64,000 bases of DNA, taken from the NCBI GenBank assembly GCA_018268255.1, contig JAFDWX010000003.1:209740-273739 (forward strand). The letters run 5' to 3'. The notes under the pieces were generated by a model. The model did no database searches and was not told where the DNA came from. It saw nothing but the letters and a program-made list of their open reading frames with translations. Source of the DNA: Armatimonadota bacterium (GTDB lineage Bacteria; Armatimonadota; Fimbriimonadia; Fimbriimonadales; Fimbriimonadaceae). Positions 1 to 51,019 of this stretch are shown one piece after another. Position numbers and translations under genes: made by a program. The first letter of the stretch is position 1, and the number at the start of each line of letters is the position of its first letter.

Positions 1-40
1 CAGTGCGATTGCAGCGCTCTCCCAGCTGAGCTACATCCCC
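1..40 (-). tRNA. tRNA-Ala(CGC), 3' part cut off by window edge
   Basis: Read on the minus strand from base 40, the sequence gives a 7-nt acceptor strand (GGGGATG), TA at positions 8-9, a D-arm with GCTC/GAGC stem, and an anticodon stem CTGCA. The 7-nt loop holds U33 and anticodon CGC (window bases 5-7), which reads the Ala codon GCG. The variable region, T-arm and 3' end lie outside the window, so this is a partial gene. The identity rests on the anticodon and on the close match to the second tRNA-Ala at 51.0 kb. Confidence 0.9.
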
Positions 41-9890: not shown

Positions 9891-10360
9891 CCCGAACCAA
9901 AGAACTTCAAAAGCTCTGGTGGGATTGGCTCAGCACTTCCGAACGTTTGCTTCGGATGCTCGGCGACCAAACCAGGGCGCTCGTGCGTCGCGATGTCGCA
10001 ACAATCGAAGCCATGCAGCCCGACTTGGACACCATGTTGGCCCGCATGCGCTCCATTGATGAATCCGCTGTGGCCTCTGCTCGAAAGCTGGCCGAAGCAT
10101 TGGGTGCAGAACCCAATCTTCGAGGTTTGGTAGGGGCGCTTCCTCAAGCCGAAGCGCAGCAGGTTCAGGGACTCGCAAATCGCGTCGCAGCGGCCGCTCG
10201 AACGGTTGACGAGACGATTGTTCGCAATCGAGCTCTCATCCAAAACGAGTTGGAATATATCCACGGCACCGCCGCGATTATCACCAAGGTTGCGACCGAG
10301 TCGCAAGGCAAATATGCGCCCAAGACAAAGGGGGCCGTATTAGTCGACCAAGCAGCCTAA
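9887..10360 (+). CDS. flgN: FlgN-like export chaperone for FlgK/FlgL
   Basis: A 157-aa, mainly alpha-helical protein lying directly before flgK and flgL, the normal site of flgN. It has a leucine-rich N-terminal helix (WWDWLSTSERLLRMLGDQTRALVRRDVATIEAMQPDLD) and a long C-terminal helix before YIHGTAAIITKV. FlgN binds the C-termini of the hook-junction proteins and delivers them to the export gate. Sequence similarity in this family is weak, so the call rests on helix pattern, length and position. ATGA overlap with flgJ. No flgM anti-sigma gene is seen beside it. Confidence 0.8.
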   Translation: MTRTKELQKLWWDWLSTSERLLRMLGDQTRALVRRDVATIEAMQPDLDTMLARMRSIDESAVASARKLAEALGAEPNLRGLVGALPQAEAQQVQGLANRVAAAARTVDETIVRNRALIQNELEYIHGTAAIITKVATESQGKYAPKTKGAVLVDQAA

Positions 10361-22103: not shown

Positions 22104-22808
22104 ATGACCAAGAAGCTAGGGATTCTGGCATTTGTTGCGGCCGTTGCCTCCAGTGCGCACGCAATCACGATTTTTCAGTGGAACTTCAATTCGGTCCCGG
22201 CCGACGGCAGTTCCTCCACCGGTTCTCTGACTCCCAACATCAGCCTGCCAGGCGCGGGAGTGCTTTCGCTCGTTGGCGGGACGACAAGTTCGATCGTATC
22301 TGGCGCGGGAAGCAGCGATGCAGCCCCAACCGATAACACGGCTTTTAATTTCACCGGATTCGAAACGTCTGCCACCGGTCCGGATCGCACAAGGGGCGTC
22401 ATGTTTACGATGCCGTCTACCGGATATAAGAATCTCAAGATCTCCTTCGATCAGAGGAATTCCAACACGGCACCCAACACGCTTGCCCTGCAATACACGC
22501 TCAACGGCTCCACTTGGATCGAAGCCACGAGCTATGTGACCACCGTTGGCGCAACATTCAGCAACAACAAAGTCTTTGATTTCAGCACGGTAACGGGCGC
22601 CAACAATAACGCCAACTTCGCCGTGCGATTCCTGGGTGCCTATGACGTCACTGCAGGAAAGTACGTCGGTACCGCTGGCACCTACGGTTCAGCTGGAACG
22701 GTCCGATTGGACATGGTCACGATCAATGCCGAAGCCGTGCCGGAGCCGGCAACGCTTGCTGCCATCGGATTCGGGGTCGCAGCACTGGTTCGACGCCGCA
22801 AGAAGTAA
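22104..22808 (+). CDS. PEP-CTERM secreted protein, tandem paralogue 1
   Basis: The 234-aa protein has a signal peptide (MTKKLGILAFVAAVASSAHA), starts its mature part with ITIFQWNFNS, and ends in a PEP-CTERM tail: VPEPATL, a hydrophobic stretch (AAIGFGVAALV) and RRRKK. Such tails are cut by an exosortase/archaeosortase-type enzyme and the proteins are usually tied to exopolysaccharide or the envelope. The body is beta-rich with many Thr/Ser/Asn. It shares its architecture and several motifs (WNFNS, GTGSSD/GAGSSD, DNTA, YDMVTVN/LDMVTIN) with the next gene, so the two are a tandem duplication. Confidence 0.88.
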   Translation: MTKKLGILAFVAAVASSAHAITIFQWNFNSVPADGSSSTGSLTPNISLPGAGVLSLVGGTTSSIVSGAGSSDAAPTDNTAFNFTGFETSATGPDRTRGVMFTMPSTGYKNLKISFDQRNSNTAPNTLALQYTLNGSTWIEATSYVTTVGATFSNNKVFDFSTVTGANNNANFAVRFLGAYDVTAGKYVGTAGTYGSAGTVRLDMVTINAEAVPEPATLAAIGFGVAALVRRRKK

Positions 22809-22830
22809 ATTCCACTTCAGGTGTGAAATC

Positions 22831-22865
22831 GGGAGGTCAGGCAGAAATGCTTGACCTCCTTTTTG
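22831..22865 (+). terminator. Rho-independent terminator after PEP-CTERM gene 1
   Basis: GGAGGTCA (22832-22839) pairs perfectly with TGACCTCC (22852-22859), followed directly by a T-run (22860-22864). It ends the first PEP-CTERM transcript, so each paralogue has its own unit. Confidence 0.85.
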
Positions 22866-22878
22866 CCAGTGCCCATGG

Positions 22879-22957
22879 GTCACAATTAGAGCCCGCTGAT
22901 ACCGATATAGAATAGTTTGCCTAGGCTTTCTGGGCAACCCCATTTGAAAGGAGAAAT
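22879..22957 (+). promoter_or_regulatory. Promoter and hairpin leader of PEP-CTERM gene 2
   Basis: TATAGAAT (22906-22913) is a good -10. GTCACA at 22879-22884 is also found at a similar distance before the third leader (23741-23746). A hairpin with TTGCC (22917-22921) and GGCAA (22933-22937) follows, then GAAAGGAG (22946-22953) as SD six bases before the ATG. The arrangement matches the leaders at 22045 and 23766. Confidence 0.5.
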
Positions 22958-22958
22958 A

Positions 22959-23684
22959 ATGCGGTTAACCCTTGTCAGCCTCGCGCTCGCTTGCGTGGCA
23001 GCCTCTCAGGCTGTCGTGATTACTCAGTGGAATTTCAATTCCAACCCTCCCGATACCTCAACCTCGACGGGCACCCTCTTGCCAAGCATCGGTGCAGGAA
23101 CTGCCGCCGGAATTGGTGGTGTTACCGCCAGCTACACCGCTGGCACAGGCAGTTCGGATCCAGCAGCCAGCGACAACACGGCGATGCACCTTGCCAACTT
23201 CCCTGCACAGGGAGTTGGAAGTGGAACCGCGGGAGCCCAGTTCAATGTTTCGACTGTGGGCTTCGCCAACGTGATCATTTCCTTTGACCGACGACATTCC
23301 GCTTCAGCTTCTCGATGGGTTGAGCTGCAGTACAGCACCAATGGAACGACCTTTACGGGATTCCAGGACTACGAGATTCCTGGCACCAACGTCGCCATGG
23401 TGAATAACGCCACGGCTGATCTCTCCGCAGTGGCTGGGGTCGCAAACAATCCGAACTTCGCTTTCAGAATCGTAGCTGTGTTCGGTACGGTGGGTGCAGT
23501 CGGCGGAACAACCTACGCAACAGTAGGCAACACCACATCAGGCGCTGGAGGCAGCAACTATGCCACCAGCGGCACCATTCGGTACGACATGGTTACTGTC
23601 AATGGCCAAGCGGTCCCTGAACCCGCGACGATGGCTGTGCTTGCTATCGGTGCAGTCGCCGCGATGCGACGACGAAAGAAGTAA
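22959..23684 (+). CDS. PEP-CTERM secreted protein, tandem paralogue 2
   Basis: I start at the ATG at 22959, which has a strong SD (GAAAGGAG) and opens a signal peptide (MRLTLVSLALACVAASQA); a longer open frame from 22917 lacks both. The 241-aa protein runs VVITQWNFNS at the mature start, has a GTGSSDPAASDNTA block and ends VPEPATM, a hydrophobic AVLAIGAVAAM stretch and RRRKK. It is a paralogue of the preceding gene and likely surface- or matrix-associated after sortase-like processing. No exosortase is encoded in this window. Confidence 0.88.
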   Translation: MRLTLVSLALACVAASQAVVITQWNFNSNPPDTSTSTGTLLPSIGAGTAAGIGGVTASYTAGTGSSDPAASDNTAMHLANFPAQGVGSGTAGAQFNVSTVGFANVIISFDRRHSASASRWVELQYSTNGTTFTGFQDYEIPGTNVAMVNNATADLSAVAGVANNPNFAFRIVAVFGTVGAVGGTTYATVGNTTSGAGGSNYATSGTIRYDMVTVNGQAVPEPATMAVLAIGAVAAMRRRKK

Positions 23685-39642: not shown

Positions 39643-40803
39643 ATGGTCAAGCATCTTTGTGTTCTCGCCGTTGTACTTGGAGTGCCCGTCGTATCGCGTG
39701 CGCAATCTTCCTTTGTCAAGGTCGGTGGTGGTCCATCTATATTCGCAAGTCGGGTTTTCGCTGGCTCTGCGGATGGCTCAACTGCCGCATGCGTCAGCTA
39801 CAGTAGCCAGGCTACTTTCGGATCGGTCTGGACTCAGGCGAACGGCACCACAACTCTGGGGCTGCTGTCTGGAACCACCTATTCGGAACCTCATGGGGTT
39901 TCGGCCAACGGATCCGCAATTACGGGAACAGCACTGACGACGGGGGGTGACTATCGAGCATTCCGTTGGACATCATCTGGCGGAATCCAGTCTCTGGCCG
40001 CTTTGGCTGGCGACACCAAAACATATGGGCAAGCCATTTCGGGCGATGGCTCTGTGGTGGTTGGGTCCAGCGCATCGTTTGGAGCTCGAGCAGTGCGATG
40101 GTTATCAAACGGTACTGCACAAAACCTAGGATTTGTCTCGGGAGGAAATTTCAGCGCAGCCAATGGCGTCTCGGGTGATGGCAGTGTTGTTGTGGGAGAA
40201 AGTGGAAACTCTTCGTTCTTCCATGCATTCCGATGGACTTCTGGTGCAGGAATGCAGGACCTTGGAACCCTTCCCGGTGGCACGCTTTCTAGGGCATTCG
40301 GGATTTCCGCTGACGGTTCAACCATTTTTGGAGGCTCAAATTCGCCGGTCGGGAATGATCGAGGATTTCGGTGGACTGCGTCTGGTGGAATGGAGAACAT
40401 TGGCCTTTTAGCCGATGGATTAGGATGCCAGATTTACGGATCGTCGCAGGATGGAAACGCCTTGGTAGGCACATGCTATACCACCTCCGGCCAGAGAGCA
40501 TTCTTGTGGCAACAAGGCATCGGTATGCGTCCACTGAATTCTGTGCTCATCGAAGCTGGACTGGGATCAGAAATGGCAGGCATTAACCTTGTGGATGCTC
40601 GCAGTGTTTCGGTAGTGGGCGGCAAGATGTATATCACATGCAATGGCTCCAACAACTCGGGCCAAGCGCAGGCATTTCTGGCTACGGTCGCTGTCCCCGA
40701 ACCCACGTCCGTGATTGGTTTTGCGGTTTTGGTCAGTGGAGCCAGCTTGCGGCGAAGGAAGTCAGAGGCCCCAAATCGAGGGAACTTAAACTCGCGCCAT
40801 TGA
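39643..40803 (+). CDS. HAF-repeat PEP-CTERM secreted protein
   Basis: After a signal peptide (MVKHLCVLAVVLGVPVVSRAQ) the 386-aa protein is made of repeated blocks of HAF type, for example RAFRWTSSGGIQSLAALAGD, HAFRWTSGAGMQDLGTLPGG and GFRWTASGGMENIGLLADG, each followed by an A(F/N)G(I/V)S.DGS..G segment (ISADGSTIFGG, VSGDGSVVVGE). It ends with VPEPTSV, a hydrophobic stretch and RRRK, then a tail of about 14 residues that goes beyond the usual end. Such proteins are exported and probably anchored. It overlaps the convergent GH28 gene by 18 bp. Confidence 0.85.
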   Translation: MVKHLCVLAVVLGVPVVSRAQSSFVKVGGGPSIFASRVFAGSADGSTAACVSYSSQATFGSVWTQANGTTTLGLLSGTTYSEPHGVSANGSAITGTALTTGGDYRAFRWTSSGGIQSLAALAGDTKTYGQAISGDGSVVVGSSASFGARAVRWLSNGTAQNLGFVSGGNFSAANGVSGDGSVVVGESGNSSFFHAFRWTSGAGMQDLGTLPGGTLSRAFGISADGSTIFGGSNSPVGNDRGFRWTASGGMENIGLLADGLGCQIYGSSQDGNALVGTCYTTSGQRAFLWQQGIGMRPLNSVLIEAGLGSEMAGINLVDARSVSVVGGKMYITCNGSNNSGQAQAFLATVAVPEPTSVIGFAVLVSGASLRRRKSEAPNRGNLNSRH

Positions 40804-42253: not shown

Positions 42254-42769
42254 ATGAATGACACGTTGGAACAGGCACTTACGGCGAAACAAGCTTCGCG
42301 TGAGTATTTACTCAAACACTTTGCTGGAATGGATGGAGAGCAGTGGCATTTCAAGCCGTTTGCTGAATGTAAGTCGCCATTCGAAACCTTGCAGCATTTG
42401 GTCATCGATGACCTCTCGGCGATCGAATCGCTGAAGACTGGATCAGAGCCAGACTACGAGTCTTACAAACCCTTGGTAGGTTCTGTCGATGATCTTCTAG
42501 GTGCTCTCAAGGCATCCCACGAACAACTTTTGGCTGTAATTGCCAACCGATATCCTAACCCGGAGGAAGGCACTCCAATTTGCATCTGGGGAACTCAGTA
42601 TCCGTTTCGATCTGGAGTGGCCTGGCTGTCCTCCGAAGACTGCTATCACGCCGGACAAATAGCCTACATTCGCATGGCGAACGACCCAAGTTGGGACTAC
42701 TACCAAGCCATCTACGGAATGTCTTTCACCGATGTGATTGGGTCGGAACACCAAAGAATCAACCCGTAA
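42254..42769 (+). CDS. DinB/YfiT-like four-helix protein
   Basis: The 171-aa protein (start at MNDTLEQALTAKQASREYLL, since the frame before it covers the divergent promoter) has the DinB-like helix-bundle outline: KQASREYLLKHFAGMDGEQWHFKP, SPFETLQHLVIDDLSAIESL with a metal-type histidine, and SEDCYHAGQIAYIRMAN near the end with a second H/D pair. Family members are metal-binding proteins, some of them thiol-dependent transferases. Function here is unknown. It overlaps the convergent PEP-CTERM gene by 11 bp. Confidence 0.72.
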   Translation: MNDTLEQALTAKQASREYLLKHFAGMDGEQWHFKPFAECKSPFETLQHLVIDDLSAIESLKTGSEPDYESYKPLVGSVDDLLGALKASHEQLLAVIANRYPNPEEGTPICIWGTQYPFRSGVAWLSSEDCYHAGQIAYIRMANDPSWDYYQAIYGMSFTDVIGSEHQRINP

Positions 42770-43607
42770 GAGAATTCTGGATGGATGATTTGCGCCTGCG
42801 CAGGACGACCCCCGCAAGTCCCATCGCAAGAGCCGCAGTCGAAACTGGTTCGGGCACTGCCAAAAAGCCTGTTCCCGCTCCGGTCACCCCAGTCACGGTG
42901 GCCTGGGATGTAAATGCCCCAGTCGTATGGTTCAGGAGGCCGATTTTCATGGTGCTCGATGACGAGTCTTGGCGAAGGGCGGCATAGAGGCTCCCCCCGT
43001 AGAACTCAATTCCATTGTTGGAGAACCCAGGGCTGGTGCTCCCTACGACTGAGGATCCTCCTGAGGGAGTCCACCGGTAAAGTCGGTTATTTGTGGAATC
43101 CGTAAAGTAGAAGAGACTGTCGGTTGAGCTATACGCCAAACCTCCACATCCAGCTACGTTTACCCCTGTACTGTAACTTTGAACGCTGTTCCCAGTAAGT
43201 GGGTCAAAGCGAAAAATGGTGATGGGAGCCTGGGAATCTTCCACTCCCCACATCTGTCCCTCTGCAAAGACGAGTGATCCAATTCCGTGGTTCAACGATC
43301 CGATCGGTGTGAGTGTGGCTGCGCCAAATGGATTGTTGAGTTTGTAGATTTGGTAACGCGAATTGGTGGCTGTCGTGGCACACGCGATGATGTCACCTTC
43401 GGATGCACCCGGTAGGCTAATGCCAGCTGGGAGCACCGTGAGTGATTGGATGCCTGCAGAAAGCGTGGCAGATGAGTAGACGTTGCCGTCCGAATCAGCA
43501 CGGAAGAGCTTTGCGCCATCGGTTGCGAGAAACATGACTCCGTGCGAAAAGCACACAGATGTGGCGACGCTGCTGACGAACGATGTTGTACGAAGAAAAC
43601 GCCTCAT
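42759..43607 (-). CDS. PEP-CTERM beta-propeller-like secreted protein
   Basis: The 282-aa protein has a signal peptide-like start (MRRFLRTTSFVSSVATSVCF), a Ser/Gly/Thr-rich beta body with repeating short strands (FRADSDGNVYSS, YRWTPSGGSSVVGSTS, FRFDPLTGN) that look like propeller blades, and a PEP-CTERM tail: VPEPVSTAALAMGLAGVVLRRRK followed by a 9-residue tail (SSIQNSLTG). It is the fourth of five PEP-CTERM proteins in the window. Location is probably outside the cell after processing. Confidence 0.82.
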   Translation of the reverse strand: MRRFLRTTSFVSSVATSVCFSHGVMFLATDGAKLFRADSDGNVYSSATLSAGIQSLTVLPAGISLPGASEGDIIACATTATNSRYQIYKLNNPFGAATLTPIGSLNHGIGSLVFAEGQMWGVEDSQAPITIFRFDPLTGNSVQSYSTGVNVAGCGGLAYSSTDSLFYFTDSTNNRLYRWTPSGGSSVVGSTSPGFSNNGIEFYGGSLYAALRQDSSSSTMKIGLLNHTTGAFTSQATVTGVTGAGTGFLAVPEPVSTAALAMGLAGVVLRRRKSSIQNSLTG

Positions 43608-46612: not shown

Positions 46613-46774
46613 GGTTAAGAGAATGCCTCGATTCCCACGCAAGCAAAGCTACGCACACATGCCGATTTCCCAGTTGTGGCATGCCCGATCGTATTACCGC
46701 CATCCACAGCATCTTTACTGGAATTGAATGCCCCAAAACTATAGGCGGTAGAGGACTGATGTATAGTGCTTTTT

Positions 46775-47431
46775 ATGCGGCATCTTCAATTTTTCTGTCT
46801 GTTGACGGCATGCGGTATAGCTCACGCGCAGAGCGTCGGTCCGTCCCCTTATCTCAAGGCAGCTGATAGCCCTTGGAACAGCTTGACTTGGAGTTACCAC
46901 TACCTGGAAGACTTTGAGGATGGCCTTCTCAACGTTCCGGGAGTCACAAAAGATCAGGGAAATGTTTATGGTCCTGCCTTCAATACGGACTCTGTGGATG
47001 CAGATGATGGGACTATCGACGGGTTTGGCATCGATGGCCACAGCTTTTTCCATGTTAGCGGTCCCGAGGGCATTACGTTCACCTTTGATGCGGGAATTTT
47101 GGGCTCACTCCCGACACGCGCCGGCCTGGTCTGGACCGATGGAACCGATGACATCACCTTTGAAGCTTGGGATCAGAATGGCGTATCCCTAGGCAAGGTG
47201 AACGGATACCACGCTGATGGCAGTACTTTGGGAACGACGGGCGATGATCGTTTTTACGGTTGGGTTAACGCCGACGGCATTTCCAAGATGAAGATCACCA
47301 ACTCTGGCGGAGGAATCGAAGTCGATCACCTGCAGTATGGAATTTCAACCGTGCCGGAACCGTTCTCGGCTTCAGTGCTGTGCGCAGGCATGATCGGGTT
47401 ACTGCGGCGCAAGCGTATTGGGGCTCGGTAA
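46775..47431 (+). CDS. PEP-CTERM secreted protein
   Basis: The 218-aa protein (ATG at 46775, MRHLQFFCLLTACGIAHAQ signal peptide; a GTG nine bases earlier is an alternative) has an acidic beta-rich body (HYLEDFEDGLLNVPGVT, DSVDADDGTIDGFGIDGHS, RAGLVWTDGTDDITFEAWD) that resembles other Fimbriimonadia/Planctomycete-type secreted proteins, and a tail VPEPFSASVLCAGMIGLLRRKR. No SD is evident and TATAGT lies only 8-13 bp upstream, so the mRNA may be nearly leaderless. It is the fifth PEP-CTERM protein of the window. Confidence 0.8.
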   Translation: MRHLQFFCLLTACGIAHAQSVGPSPYLKAADSPWNSLTWSYHYLEDFEDGLLNVPGVTKDQGNVYGPAFNTDSVDADDGTIDGFGIDGHSFFHVSGPEGITFTFDAGILGSLPTRAGLVWTDGTDDITFEAWDQNGVSLGKVNGYHADGSTLGTTGDDRFYGWVNADGISKMKITNSGGGIEVDHLQYGISTVPEPFSASVLCAGMIGLLRRKRIGAR

Positions 47432-48421: not shown

Positions 48422-48463
48422 AGTTAGATGAGGATTAAGGGATCTAAACCTCTGACCTCTTCC
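48422..48463 (-). repeat. Decayed copy of the 3' end of tRNA-Ala(GGC), fragment 1
   Basis: On the plus strand, GATTAAGGGATCTAAACCTC and TGACCTCTTCC match the tRNA-Ala(GGC) stretch at 50951-50981 (GATTAGGGGATTCGAACCCC, TGACCTCTTCC) in the same orientation, 26 of 31 aligned bases, all differences being transitions. It covers the T-arm, variable region and 3' part of the anticodon arm, with degraded bases at the acceptor end. It marks the outer edge of the module at 48464-49713. Confidence 0.75.
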
Positions 48464-48476
48464 CTGGCTCTCAGGG

Positions 48477-48833
48477 CTACACTGTTTCGTATGGAATGAA
48501 CAAATCGCTTGTTACCGTTGAAATCAAAACAACACCAGATACTGCTAGTGCAAGCGCCGGAAGAATAGGGGAGGCACGGTCGATCCTTGCAGCATGTACC
48601 ATCCCGGATACCCACCATACGCAAGGGCTCGCGATCATCCCGGAGCTGTAGCAAAGCCAGAAACGAGGGTTGAGCGCGACTCTCCTCTCCCGAAGATATC
48701 TCATAATATGCACAGTCAACGTTAGGCCAACCAATCCGGCGCTCGCCACTAGACCGAATGAACTTTGATCCCTTCCGAAAAACAAACTTCCGACAGTGCC
48801 CATGAGGCGAAGTGTTTCTATAGCTCTGATCAT
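48477..48833 (-). CDS. Hypothetical membrane protein, 118 aa
   Basis: The protein has hydrophobic segments at about residues 10-45, 60-80 and 92-110, joined by a basic loop (MRYLRERRVALNPRFW). No motif is recognised. Its start overlaps the stop of the small upstream membrane ORF as ATGA, so they are likely co-translated. It is the last gene of the first tRNA-fragment module. Confidence 0.6.
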   Translation of the reverse strand: MIRAIETLRLMGTVGSLFFGRDQSSFGLVASAGLVGLTLTVHIMRYLRERRVALNPRFWLCYSSGMIASPCVWWVSGMVHAARIDRASPILPALALAVSGVVLISTVTSDLFIPYETV

Positions 48834-48931
48834 GGCAATGCACGTATATCGAGGATGAGGATCAGTAACGCCACGCCCAGAGATAAGATTCCGAAGAAGA
48901 TTGTCACGAGGGCAAAGATGATGAGCTTCAT
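48830..48931 (-). CDS. 33-aa single-helix membrane peptide
   Basis: I start at MKLIIFALVTIFFGILSLGVALLILILDI, almost entirely hydrophobic, which is the plausible coding part; the frame extends to 49018 without a better start. It overlaps the next gene by four bases (ATGA). Such small helices often pair with a partner membrane protein, here the 118-aa protein; that is an inference from the coupling. Confidence 0.5.
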   Translation of the reverse strand: MKLIIFALVTIFFGILSLGVALLILILDIRALP

Positions 48932-49077
48932 ATGCTCTGGAATTCTAAAAAGGTACATTAACCGCAAACTGGGCCTGAAGCAATCAGTGGATTGAGTTGA
49001 CATGCTGTTGGTCAACATGATGTGTAATCGCGCTAGCCGAACAGCATGGATTCTCTTCAGGCAATGAGAGTTTGGAT

Positions 49078-49503
49078 TTAACCATTTTCCCTAAGCCAGA
49101 GCTCTCTCCTTTGCTCCATGTATATTGATCGATTCTTAATATCGTCATTCGTAAAGCAGATGGAGATATCTGCCCATTCGGGCTCTTTTGGACCCCGTAG
49201 TTCCTCCATTGTCTTTCCGAAATGGGCCCTGGCAAACGCTTCCGCGCCAAACTGGGTTCCCAAAAGCACGAGATGGATTTCAGCATCCACCAGCCACGAA
49301 CCTATGGAAAGGTTGCATTTGGATGCATCGGATTCGGCAATATGGACCTGCAGCACAGAAGATCCGTAAGCTTCGTCTCTCTCGATGAGTCGATAGGGCA
49401 AAATCAACGAAAAGTCCTTAACGCGCAATCCCTCTTCCACGAGAATCCATCCCTGATCCGGAAGTTGGACACTTATTGGACTCAGCATGTTGTTGTTGCT
49501 CAT
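49078..49503 (-). CDS. Hypothetical protein, 141 aa
   Basis: A soluble, mildly acidic protein with WILVEEGLRVKDFSLILPYRLIERDEAYGSSVLQVHIAES (two blocks, residues about 18-57), DAEIHLVLLGTQFGAEAFARAHFGK and YMEQRRELWLRENG at the end. No family is recognised. It lies between the small membrane ORF and the second tRNA fragment, so it travels in the same module. Confidence 0.55.
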   Translation of the reverse strand: MSNNNMLSPISVQLPDQGWILVEEGLRVKDFSLILPYRLIERDEAYGSSVLQVHIAESDASKCNLSIGSWLVDAEIHLVLLGTQFGAEAFARAHFGKTMEELRGPKEPEWADISICFTNDDIKNRSIYMEQRRELWLRENG

Positions 49504-49713
49504 TTTCTGTTTGCCTCCCGAGAATTATGAACGAGGATCAAGTGGGGAGGAAACAGAGACCAAGCTCAACCTCGCGTCGCAATCAAAATCCATGGTTCGG
49601 ACTCATCGGGCTATGGGATGCTGCGTGTACGAACAGCTTCGTCGCTTGAAGTGCTCGACGATTCGGTACGGTCCTCGAGATTTACCGTCGGACCCGGTAT
49701 GACCAAAGAGAGC

Positions 49714-49746
49714 TTCGGTGGTGATTAGGTGATTTGAACCTCTGGG
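49714..49746 (-). repeat. Decayed copy of the 3' end of tRNA-Ala(GGC), fragment 2
   Basis: On the plus strand, GGTGGTGATTAGGTGATTTG and AACCTCTG match the tRNA 3' end (GGTGGAGATTAGGGGATTCG, AACCCCTG) with six mismatches in about 32 bases, in the same orientation. It keeps the acceptor 3' strand, part of the CCA end and the T-arm, then diverges. It separates the modules at 48464-49713 and 49747-50943, and falls within a 288-bp stretch with no gene. Confidence 0.75.
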
Positions 49747-49791
49747 TGATCCTTTGATGTAGATACTTTCAGCTTGCAAGTGTCCAGCCGG

Positions 49792-50259
49792 TTATAGGGT
49801 TTCGTTGGGAGGCCTATACCGAATTGCGTTTCTACTTTGCCAAAAGAGCCCAAGAATCAGTGGCCAAGAGTAGAGGAGATAGTAACCGGCTGCCTCAATC
49901 GCAATCTTTCCCATCAGATGAGGAGGAGTTAGTGACCAACTTGTCTCTCCGGGATAGATGATCGATTGCACGGATACCATCAATACACCGGCGAAGACCC
50001 AAGGCAAGAACCTCTTCATAGTTTGACTCTTTCTATTGGATATTGCGAATCCAACGCTGGTAATGATCGCCAAACTAGTGAAGAGAATCCAAGATTCTCT
50101 CATATGGTCTGCCCAAAATTGGACGATCTGCATATGCGAAGTAGGAGTGGCATGTTCCCAGTCGGGGCGTGGCCACTGGAGTCGGCAATAGACACATATT
50201 GAAAAGAACGTTGCGTAAGTCCAATCACGTATTGAAAGTCGATCACGTTGCTTCATCAA
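49792..50259 (-). CDS. Hypothetical membrane protein, 155 aa
   Basis: Hydrophobic segments at about 15-30, 55-75, 83-100 and 115-138, with IRDWTYATFFSICVYCRLQWPRPDWEHAT near the start and KIAIEAAGYYLLYSWPLILGLFWQSR near the end. No motif is recognised. It is in the module that adjoins the tRNA and reads in the tRNA direction. Confidence 0.55.
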   Translation of the reverse strand: MMKQRDRLSIRDWTYATFFSICVYCRLQWPRPDWEHATPTSHMQIVQFWADHMRESWILFTSLAIITSVGFAISNRKSQTMKRFLPWVFAGVLMVSVQSIIYPGETSWSLTPPHLMGKIAIEAAGYYLLYSWPLILGLFWQSRNAIRYRPPNETL

Positions 50260-50452
50260 TTCACTCTATCCATGGTGGTCGGCAGCACGTACTCCCTCGG
50301 CCTGCAAGTTCTCTTAAAGACGTGATTCAGACGAAAATTCTCCCCAGCCGAAGTGCTCACTTTGCGGTCCTCGCCAACTCTCACTGCAAATCAACTCCGT
50401 GTAAAAATTAGTAATATGTTCGCAGATACCAAACTGAAGCCCTAATAACCAA

Positions 50453-50824
50453 TTACAGGCTCGCTTGCGAGTAGTAATGTGTGCAACTCGTCACCTTCCC
50501 ACGTTCTAGCTTAATGTTCATCGTAATTCCTCCAGGATACAGAACATTGAGAAATCTAGCATCGTCCACAAATACGGAATATCTCTTTTGAGAGCCCAGA
50601 GAGTTATCTACGAGCCGATAGTCGCTAAACTTGTTGCGTAGGGCCATTTTTAGGCTAGCCTCGTCAAAAGATTCAGCAACTACAAGTGAGCAAAACTCGG
50701 CGGCAGAGTTTCTTGTGGCATTGTTAATGTCGTTCACGATAAGCTGCCAAACAACACCAATCGCGGTGCAAGTCCAAAATGCGTAAAGGGCTATTTTTCG
50801 TTTCGTCTCAGCAGTCATTGACAA
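50453..50824 (-). CDS. Hypothetical membrane-anchored protein, 123 aa
   Basis: An N-terminal membrane helix (about residues 10-30, IALYAFWTCTAIGVVWQLIV) is followed by a soluble domain with EFCSLVVAESFDEASLKMALRN, SDYRLVDNSLGSQKRYSVFVDDARFLNVLYPGG and a C-terminal VTSCTHYYSQASL. No known domain is seen. It is the gene closest to the tRNA 3' end. Confidence 0.55.
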   Translation of the reverse strand: MSMTAETKRKIALYAFWTCTAIGVVWQLIVNDINNATRNSAAEFCSLVVAESFDEASLKMALRNKFSDYRLVDNSLGSQKRYSVFVDDARFLNVLYPGGITMNIKLERGKVTSCTHYYSQASL

Positions 50825-50943
50825 ATACCCTAATCCGATGGTTCCAAAAACCTGGATAAATCAAAGATTTTATACCCTTTGCTGCACAAGCGGGCATCCC
50901 GGAGTGCACCTGAAAGCGAGCTGACGGGATGAAAAATGGAGTT

Positions 50944-51019
50944 TGGTGGAGATTAGGGGATTCGAACCCCTGACCTCTTCCATGCCATGGAAGCGCTCTC
51001 CCAACTGAGCTAAATCCCC
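50944..51019 (-). tRNA. tRNA-Ala(GGC)
   Basis: A complete 76-nt tRNA on the minus strand: acceptor GGGGATT pairing with AATCTCC, D-arm GCTC/GAGC, anticodon stem CTTCC/GGAAG with loop ATGGCAT (anticodon GGC, reading GCC), T-arm AGGGG TTCGAAT CCCCT, discriminator A and encoded CCA (window 50944-50946). Two degraded 3'-end copies lie downstream at 49714 and 48422, so the gene serves as an integration site. Confidence 0.97.

Follow-up and report, generated by a model that had tools for sequence, protein, structure and literature searches.

Decayed 3′-end copies of tRNA-Ala(GGC) and small orphan modules in a Fimbriimonadaceae genome: probable site-specific insertion behind a tRNA gene and its parallels in related genera

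The tRNA-Ala(GGC) locus and its two 3′ copies

The stretch of DNA analysed here (64,000 nucleotides, hereafter the window; G000:C3:209740-273739) belongs to a Fimbriimonadaceae genome, G000, of 3.19 Mb and 98.5% completeness. It contains an intact tRNA-Ala(GGC) gene on the minus strand at window positions 50944-51019 (ARAGORN; Rfam RF00005, 66.9 bits), presumed to be the attachment gene (attB/attL) for the DNA lying behind it. Two copies of its 3′ part lie on that strand at downstream distances of 1.19 and 2.48 kb. The nearer one, an attR-like remnant at 49717-49744 (minus strand), corresponds to tRNA nucleotides 48-75 with 24 of 28 positions identical (local score 36); the second attR-like remnant, at 48433-48466 (minus strand), corresponds to nucleotides 36-69 with 28 of 34 identical (score 38) and marks the distal end of the array. 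Both are 3′ parts only, with no recognisable 5′ half, and have diverged by 14-18% from the intact gene. Neither was matched as a tRNA in Rfam, even at a relaxed threshold, and they are therefore regarded as decayed. The 49717 copy is short, at 28 nucleotides, and starts at the T arm, as do copies in the relatives G018 and G022, while the start of the 48433 copy falls within the anticodon loop, like that of the copies in the integrase arrays of relatives described below.

The two copies are real. None of 300 Markov-shuffled versions of 4.4 kb scored above 30, and the best unrelated match in 1.71 Mb of related sequence searched on both strands scored 33, against 38 and 36 for the copies; in that sequence, every non-tRNA match scoring at least 34 proved to be a copy of the attachment type located at tRNA-Ala. 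The first-pass annotation, made from the letters of the window, had described two decayed, same-strand 3′-end copies and had named a wider search as the way to expose them as chance matches; the copies withstood that search. An independent repeat search without a tRNA model placed 48422, 49712 and 50940 in one family with spacings of 1290 and 1228 (remnant registers 48422-48466 and 49712-49756), in agreement with the earlier division of the region into modules of about 1.25 and 1.2 kb. A candidate third fragment near 47.5 kb was rejected, as it scored only 19.

No Ns occur within 46.5-52.5 kb of the window, the stretch under study. Elsewhere in G000, Ns lie inside some tRNA genes (G000:C3:209693-209779, G000:C7:27137 and G000:C2:174832), so that assembly joins at tRNAs do occur. 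At window positions 1-40 there is a tRNA-Ala(CGC) with Ns whose two halves resemble different tRNA-Ala(CGC) types; such cases may be scaffold joins or mosaics. This gene, a 27-point match, was considered as the distal end of a 51-kb island and rejected, being a separate tRNA gene split by an NN gap and followed, at 1-23 kb, by flagellar, lon-, accC-, nusB- and folD-like genes (names by reading). Several window proteins (22104-23684, 39643-40803, 42759-43607 and 46766-47431) have PEP-CTERM-like C-termini of the form VPEP ... RRRK.

Module content

Module 1 (49757-50943, minus strand, 1.19 kb) lies between the 3′ end of the tRNA and the first copy, and module 2 (48467-49711, minus strand, 1.25 kb) between the two copies. 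Their GC content, 45-49% and 48-49% respectively, contrasts with 55-58% on the 5′ side of the tRNA. The low-GC stretch fades gradually to about 47.2 kb, so that composition does not set a sharp limit at the distal end.

Five open reading frames occupy the modules, all on the tRNA (minus) strand. Module 1 has a 123-aa frame (50453-50824) with one N-terminal hydrophobic segment, no family match and the best codon support of the module, and a hydrophobic 155-aa frame (49792-50259) with weak or borderline codon support and a weak NrsF-like match below the cut-off (E 0.0012). Module 2 has a soluble 141-aa frame (49078-49503), with a GGGAGG ribosome-binding-like motif and support from codon usage; a hydrophobic 62-aa frame (48830-49018), a doubtful gene with unsupportive codon usage, which has an ATGA overlap with the next frame; and finally a hydrophobic 118-aa frame (48477-48833) without codon-usage support. 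None of these frames matched a Pfam, NCBIfam, PHROG or PADLOC family above cut-off, and the two that were searched against 100 other related genomes (49792-50259 and 49078-49503) had no relative there. The first-pass annotation had seen small orphan genes, mainly for membrane proteins, read in the tRNA direction. The direction (five of five) and the hydrophobic segments (four of five) were borne out, whereas clear codon-usage support for genes was limited to two frames, 49078-49503 and 50453-50824.

A tblastn search of 45.0-51.2 kb for remnants of an integrase, and a six-frame search of the window for GIY-YIG nuclease sequences, returned chance matches only. The other tRNAs of G000 that were examined have no 3′ copies within 1.5 kb. 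Through the flanking genes, no tRNA-Ala(GGC) locus syntenic with that of the window was found among the fetched relatives, genomes of the same genus being too distant for synteny at this locus; the comparison therefore yielded neither an empty site nor one with other contents. Nor were the copies kept at one place with the same neighbours in relatives, a pattern that the first-pass annotation had held would speak against insertion.

Small modules behind tRNA-Ala in relatives

Comparable arrangements were sought at 79 distinct tRNA-Ala loci of Fimbriimonadales, each scanned for copies of its own last 45 nucleotides. Copies of the 3′ end outside genuine tRNAs occurred at 11 of the 79 loci, always downstream and on the tRNA strand, these counts depending on the relatives fetched (several of whose genomes are fragmented) and on the score cut-off of 31. 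Matches upstream or on the opposite strand were genuine tRNAs only. In G022, tRNA-Ala(GGC) is followed by a DUF899 gene and a perfect 28/28 copy at 1.2 kb, together with a worn copy at +21; in G018, tRNA-Ala(CGC) is followed by a Fic gene and a 28/28 copy at 1.4 kb; and in G004, tRNA-Ala(TGC) is followed by a beta-lactamase-family gene and a 38-nt copy at 1.9 kb. G003 has two units of roughly 0.2-0.3 kb each, and modules of 0.3-1.0 kb are present in G034, G001, G015 and G029. No integrase was seen in any of these small modules. A different arrangement occurs in G017, where two full tRNA-Ala(CGC) genes lie 2.7 kb apart (G017:C10:90201 and 92873; L126), the second at the contig end.

Some of the units in relatives are mini-elements of about 306-320 bp, in which tRNA-Ala or tRNA-Pro is followed immediately by a small GIY-YIG gene and then by a copy of the tRNA 3′ end that closes the unit (L121 3095-12250 in G029; L167 5100-5430 in G015; L206, L211 and L220 in G084). 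Strong GIY-YIG matches in the sequences examined adjoin a tRNA, a tRNA 3′ copy or a pseudo-tRNA piece. No description of such units in bacteria was found among the openly accessible papers searched. Pseudo-tRNA pieces beside intact tRNA-Ala or tRNA-Pro carry an anticodon arm of the form TCCCG-N7-CGGGA with many different loops, their 5′ halves lying upstream and their 3′ halves downstream of the intact tRNA (L202, L203, L204, L206, L207, L209, L212, L213 and L167).

Large arrays, shared arms and an integrase family

Much larger arrays, of 48-49 kb, are located at tRNA-Ala(CGC) in three genera with single-contig genomes, G009, G012 and G020. They are divided by 45-nt copies of the tRNA 3′ end (at 10129, 19318, 20947 and 49230 in G009; 9808, 19000 and 48163 in G012; and 10250, 19442 and 48181 in G020), except that the last copy in G020 has 21 nucleotides. 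The modules comprise one of about 10 kb with a copper-type P-ATPase and partners, one of 9.2 kb with an efflux pump and a P-ATPase, and one of 28-29 kb; G009 has an extra 1.6-kb module with a MerR-like gene, and all three arrays include modules with restriction-modification- and helicase-like genes. These cargo names come from reading the sequences, and the integrase alone was tested against Pfam. In G009 and G012, the 28-29 kb module begins with a tyrosine integrase of 403-405 aa (Pfam PF00589), and the metal-resistance modules of all three arrays are without an integrase. An integrase of G009, which is of the same family as G000, is 100% identical to one in a record of Fimbriimonadaceae bacterium ACE_ARM1. 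The third module of G020 has a different integrase, at its far end, and is without GGTTCCTA arms.

The repeat GGTTCCTA stands at +20 and +33 after each module-starting core of G009 and G012, and in G020 after the first two such cores, with the offset one nucleotide less (+19 and +32) in the integrase modules. Beyond this pair, GGTTCCTA is found nowhere in the cargo modules, which range from 1.6 to 10 kb and are without any integrase in all three genera; in the integrase modules it recurs near the far end. The chromosome after the last array copy lacks the pair. A search of 113 genomes of the order for the core-plus-arms pattern matched eight genomes in seven genera, and a reversed control gave no match. 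The junctions are at tRNA-Ala(CGC) in G009, G012, G020, G038, G046, G065, G068 and G026, and in five genomes an integrase gene starts about 73 nt past the junction.

The arm-bearing modules of G020 have no such integrase adjoining; a related one, accompanied by a similar arm, is encoded at a distance of 470 kb, immediately after tRNA-Val(GAC). Shared arms and a distant integrase are what would be expected if a neighbour's integrase, or one encoded at another locus, moved integrase-less modules in trans, and this evidence from sequence supports the view that the integrase-less modules of the relatives may have been mobilised in that way. Members of the integrase family also start about 75-130 nt behind tRNA-Arg(CCT) or tRNA-Val(GAC) in G001, G009 and G020, which indicates that the family uses several tRNAs. 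G000 itself encodes a distant member at G000:C8:36507-37622 (264.6 bits), adjoining a decayed tRNA-Val(CAC) copy and GTCTCTCAAA repeats (G000:C8:35498-37798), and none near tRNA-Ala. On another contig than this integrase, a tRNA-Val 3′ half (G000:C3:389424-389491) is likewise accompanied by GTCTCTCAAA-like repeats.

Behind the three sites of the window, arm repeats are not recognisable. The left-end sequences that follow these sites are only marginally alike, with scores of 7, 11 and 11 against a null distribution with 95% and 99% points of 10 and 13.

Origin of the window modules

Insertion at the tRNA 3′ end in the window is well supported. The extent, strand and position of the copies, the foreign composition and the orphan cargo of the modules, together with strong and fresh counterparts at tRNA-Ala in related genera, support the site-specific insertion at a tRNA put forward in the first-pass annotation. 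We consider it probable that site-specific recombination inserted two elements serially at the tRNA-Ala(GGC) 3′ end, with a helper acting in trans or an integrase since deleted. A first small element, and then a second, would have entered at this end, each insertion leaving the tRNA whole and placing a duplicate of the 3′ half of the gene at the distal limit of the insert; both copies and most of the cargo would have decayed since. The enzyme would most likely have been a tyrosine integrase recombining inside tRNA genes, acting in trans from elsewhere or from its own gene, since deleted.

The first-pass annotation had also proposed that small integrase-less elements were mobilised in trans. 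This part finds backing in the relatives, where integrase-less modules share arms with the integrase module; for the window, which has no recognisable arms, integrase or GIY-YIG remnant, mobilisation in trans is a possibility by analogy. We infer that the window modules arose by the route seen in relatives, with a helper that may have acted in trans.

A real, if lesser, possibility is that each module is the shrunken remainder of a larger element that had its own integrase, having decayed to a cis-mobilizable element (CIME) with no need for mobilisation in trans. The divergence of the copies leaves time for such a deletion, and in G002, a genome of the same genus, a 54-aa remnant of an integrase, containing a stop, persists 1.2 kb behind tRNA-Ala(CGC) on its downstream side. 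However, the single-gene modules of G022 and G018 are fresh, with perfect copies, and have no integrase; the arm-bearing cargo modules of three genera are without one as well; and the window itself retains no integrase remnant.

It is unlikely that the copies derive from GIY-YIG mini-elements, in which a nuclease gene of about 0.3 kb lies behind the tRNA and DNA would be added and trapped through cutting and repair at the tRNA gene rather than by an integrase. Units of this design do exist in G029 and G015 (tRNA-Ala(GGC)) and in G084 (tRNA-Pro), in tandem in G029 and G084, and a third unit in G029 forms the end of an 8.8-kb segment that has helicase- and DNA-methylase-like frames. The window, in contrast, has no GIY-YIG trace, and its 48433 copy reads as tRNA (GGAAGAGGTCAG) and not as the GIY-YIG end motif (GGGAAGGTCAGG), a motif absent from G000.

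That the fragments are two decayed tandem tRNA duplicates, with chance frames or local orphan genes between them, seems quite improbable. Some module frames do lack codon support, and G017 has a second full tRNA-Ala(CGC), 2.7 kb downstream and at a contig end; yet the remnants have no recognisable 5′ half, GC drops inside the blocks, and all comparable copies in relatives are downstream 3′ parts. Chance matches can be set almost wholly aside: the fragments are short, one core being only 28 nt, but their scores exceed the best of both the shuffles and unrelated real sequence, and both lie less than 2.5 kb away, on the strand and side where such copies would be expected.

Comparison with known systems

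On the preferred reading, the window array is a decayed member of the tandem or additive-island kind that sits at a different tRNA and in a different phylum. Its closest precedents are the Dehalococcoides ssrA islands (PMC3146451) and the tRNA-Lys additive islands (PMC10872708). The former lie in tandem downstream of the ssrA gene, with direct repeats of the 3′ end of ssrA as the limits of each island, and 15 of them are without an integration module and have been discussed as cis-mobilizable elements (PMC3146451). They resemble the window in their tandem position downstream of one RNA gene and in their 3′-end direct repeats, and differ in their target (tmRNA, with the serine recombinase DsiB, as against tRNA-Ala, with a tyrosine integrase in relatives) and in that the window modules, each about 1.2 kb long, have decayed (PMC3146451).

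Among additive flexible genomic islands, those that carry repeats of a tRNA 3′ end include fGI-2 of Methylophilaceae (PMC10872708) and islands of Alteromonas (PMC5217437). Recurring 20-nt repeats of the tRNA-Lys 3′ end, additions of 330 bp to 42 kb and about 80% proteins of unknown function are described for them (PMC10872708). They are very like the window, at another tRNA and in another phylum (PMC10872708, PMC5217437); their design, several cassettes separated by 3′ repeats of one tRNA, is present in the window as two cassettes and three sites.

CIMEs are att-bearing elements without an integrase that can be stacked at one attachment gene by tandem accretion (PMC5704250). The window likewise has att sites without an integrase and in a stack, although its att copies are too worn to be presumed functional (PMC5704250). 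It also has the attL/attR bounds of such elements, in the form of two decayed 3′ copies on the right strand and side, and no integrase or transfer genes inside (Pfam, NCBIfam, PHROG and the integrase-remnant search). Tycheposons, as described in PMC10872708, are tRNA-associated elements of 4-200 kb with a tyrosine recombinase and cargo. The window shares with them the tRNA-associated cargo and the insertion at a tRNA 3′ end with a direct repeat; it has no resident tyrosine recombinase within 45.0-51.2 kb, its modules are about 1.2 kb as against 4-200 kb (PMC10872708), and by the test of a resident recombinase it is not a tycheposon. It also differs from the GIY-YIG mini-elements, as no nuclease gene was matched directly behind its tRNA. 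For the arrays of the relatives, the shared cores and arms support a reading as site-specific accretion of passenger elements, which would be akin to cis-mobilizable elements and additive genomic islands.

Implications

The orphan genes behind the tRNA can be explained as decayed insertions, and they lead on to fresh arrays that related genera carry in closed genomes, where metal-resistance modules without an integrase have the arm sites of an integrase module. On a broader and tentative view, which we think rather doubtful as it stands, Fimbriimonadales might possess an integron-like cassette system on tRNA genes, in which recombinase-less cassettes of one or several genes, each with only the core and the two arms of one integrase family, would be stacked behind tRNA-Ala by that integrase acting in trans; the window would then hold a worn example of such an array. 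With a core, arms, a helper gene and a natural trans arrangement (G020) now defined, how integrase-less islands move becomes directly testable.
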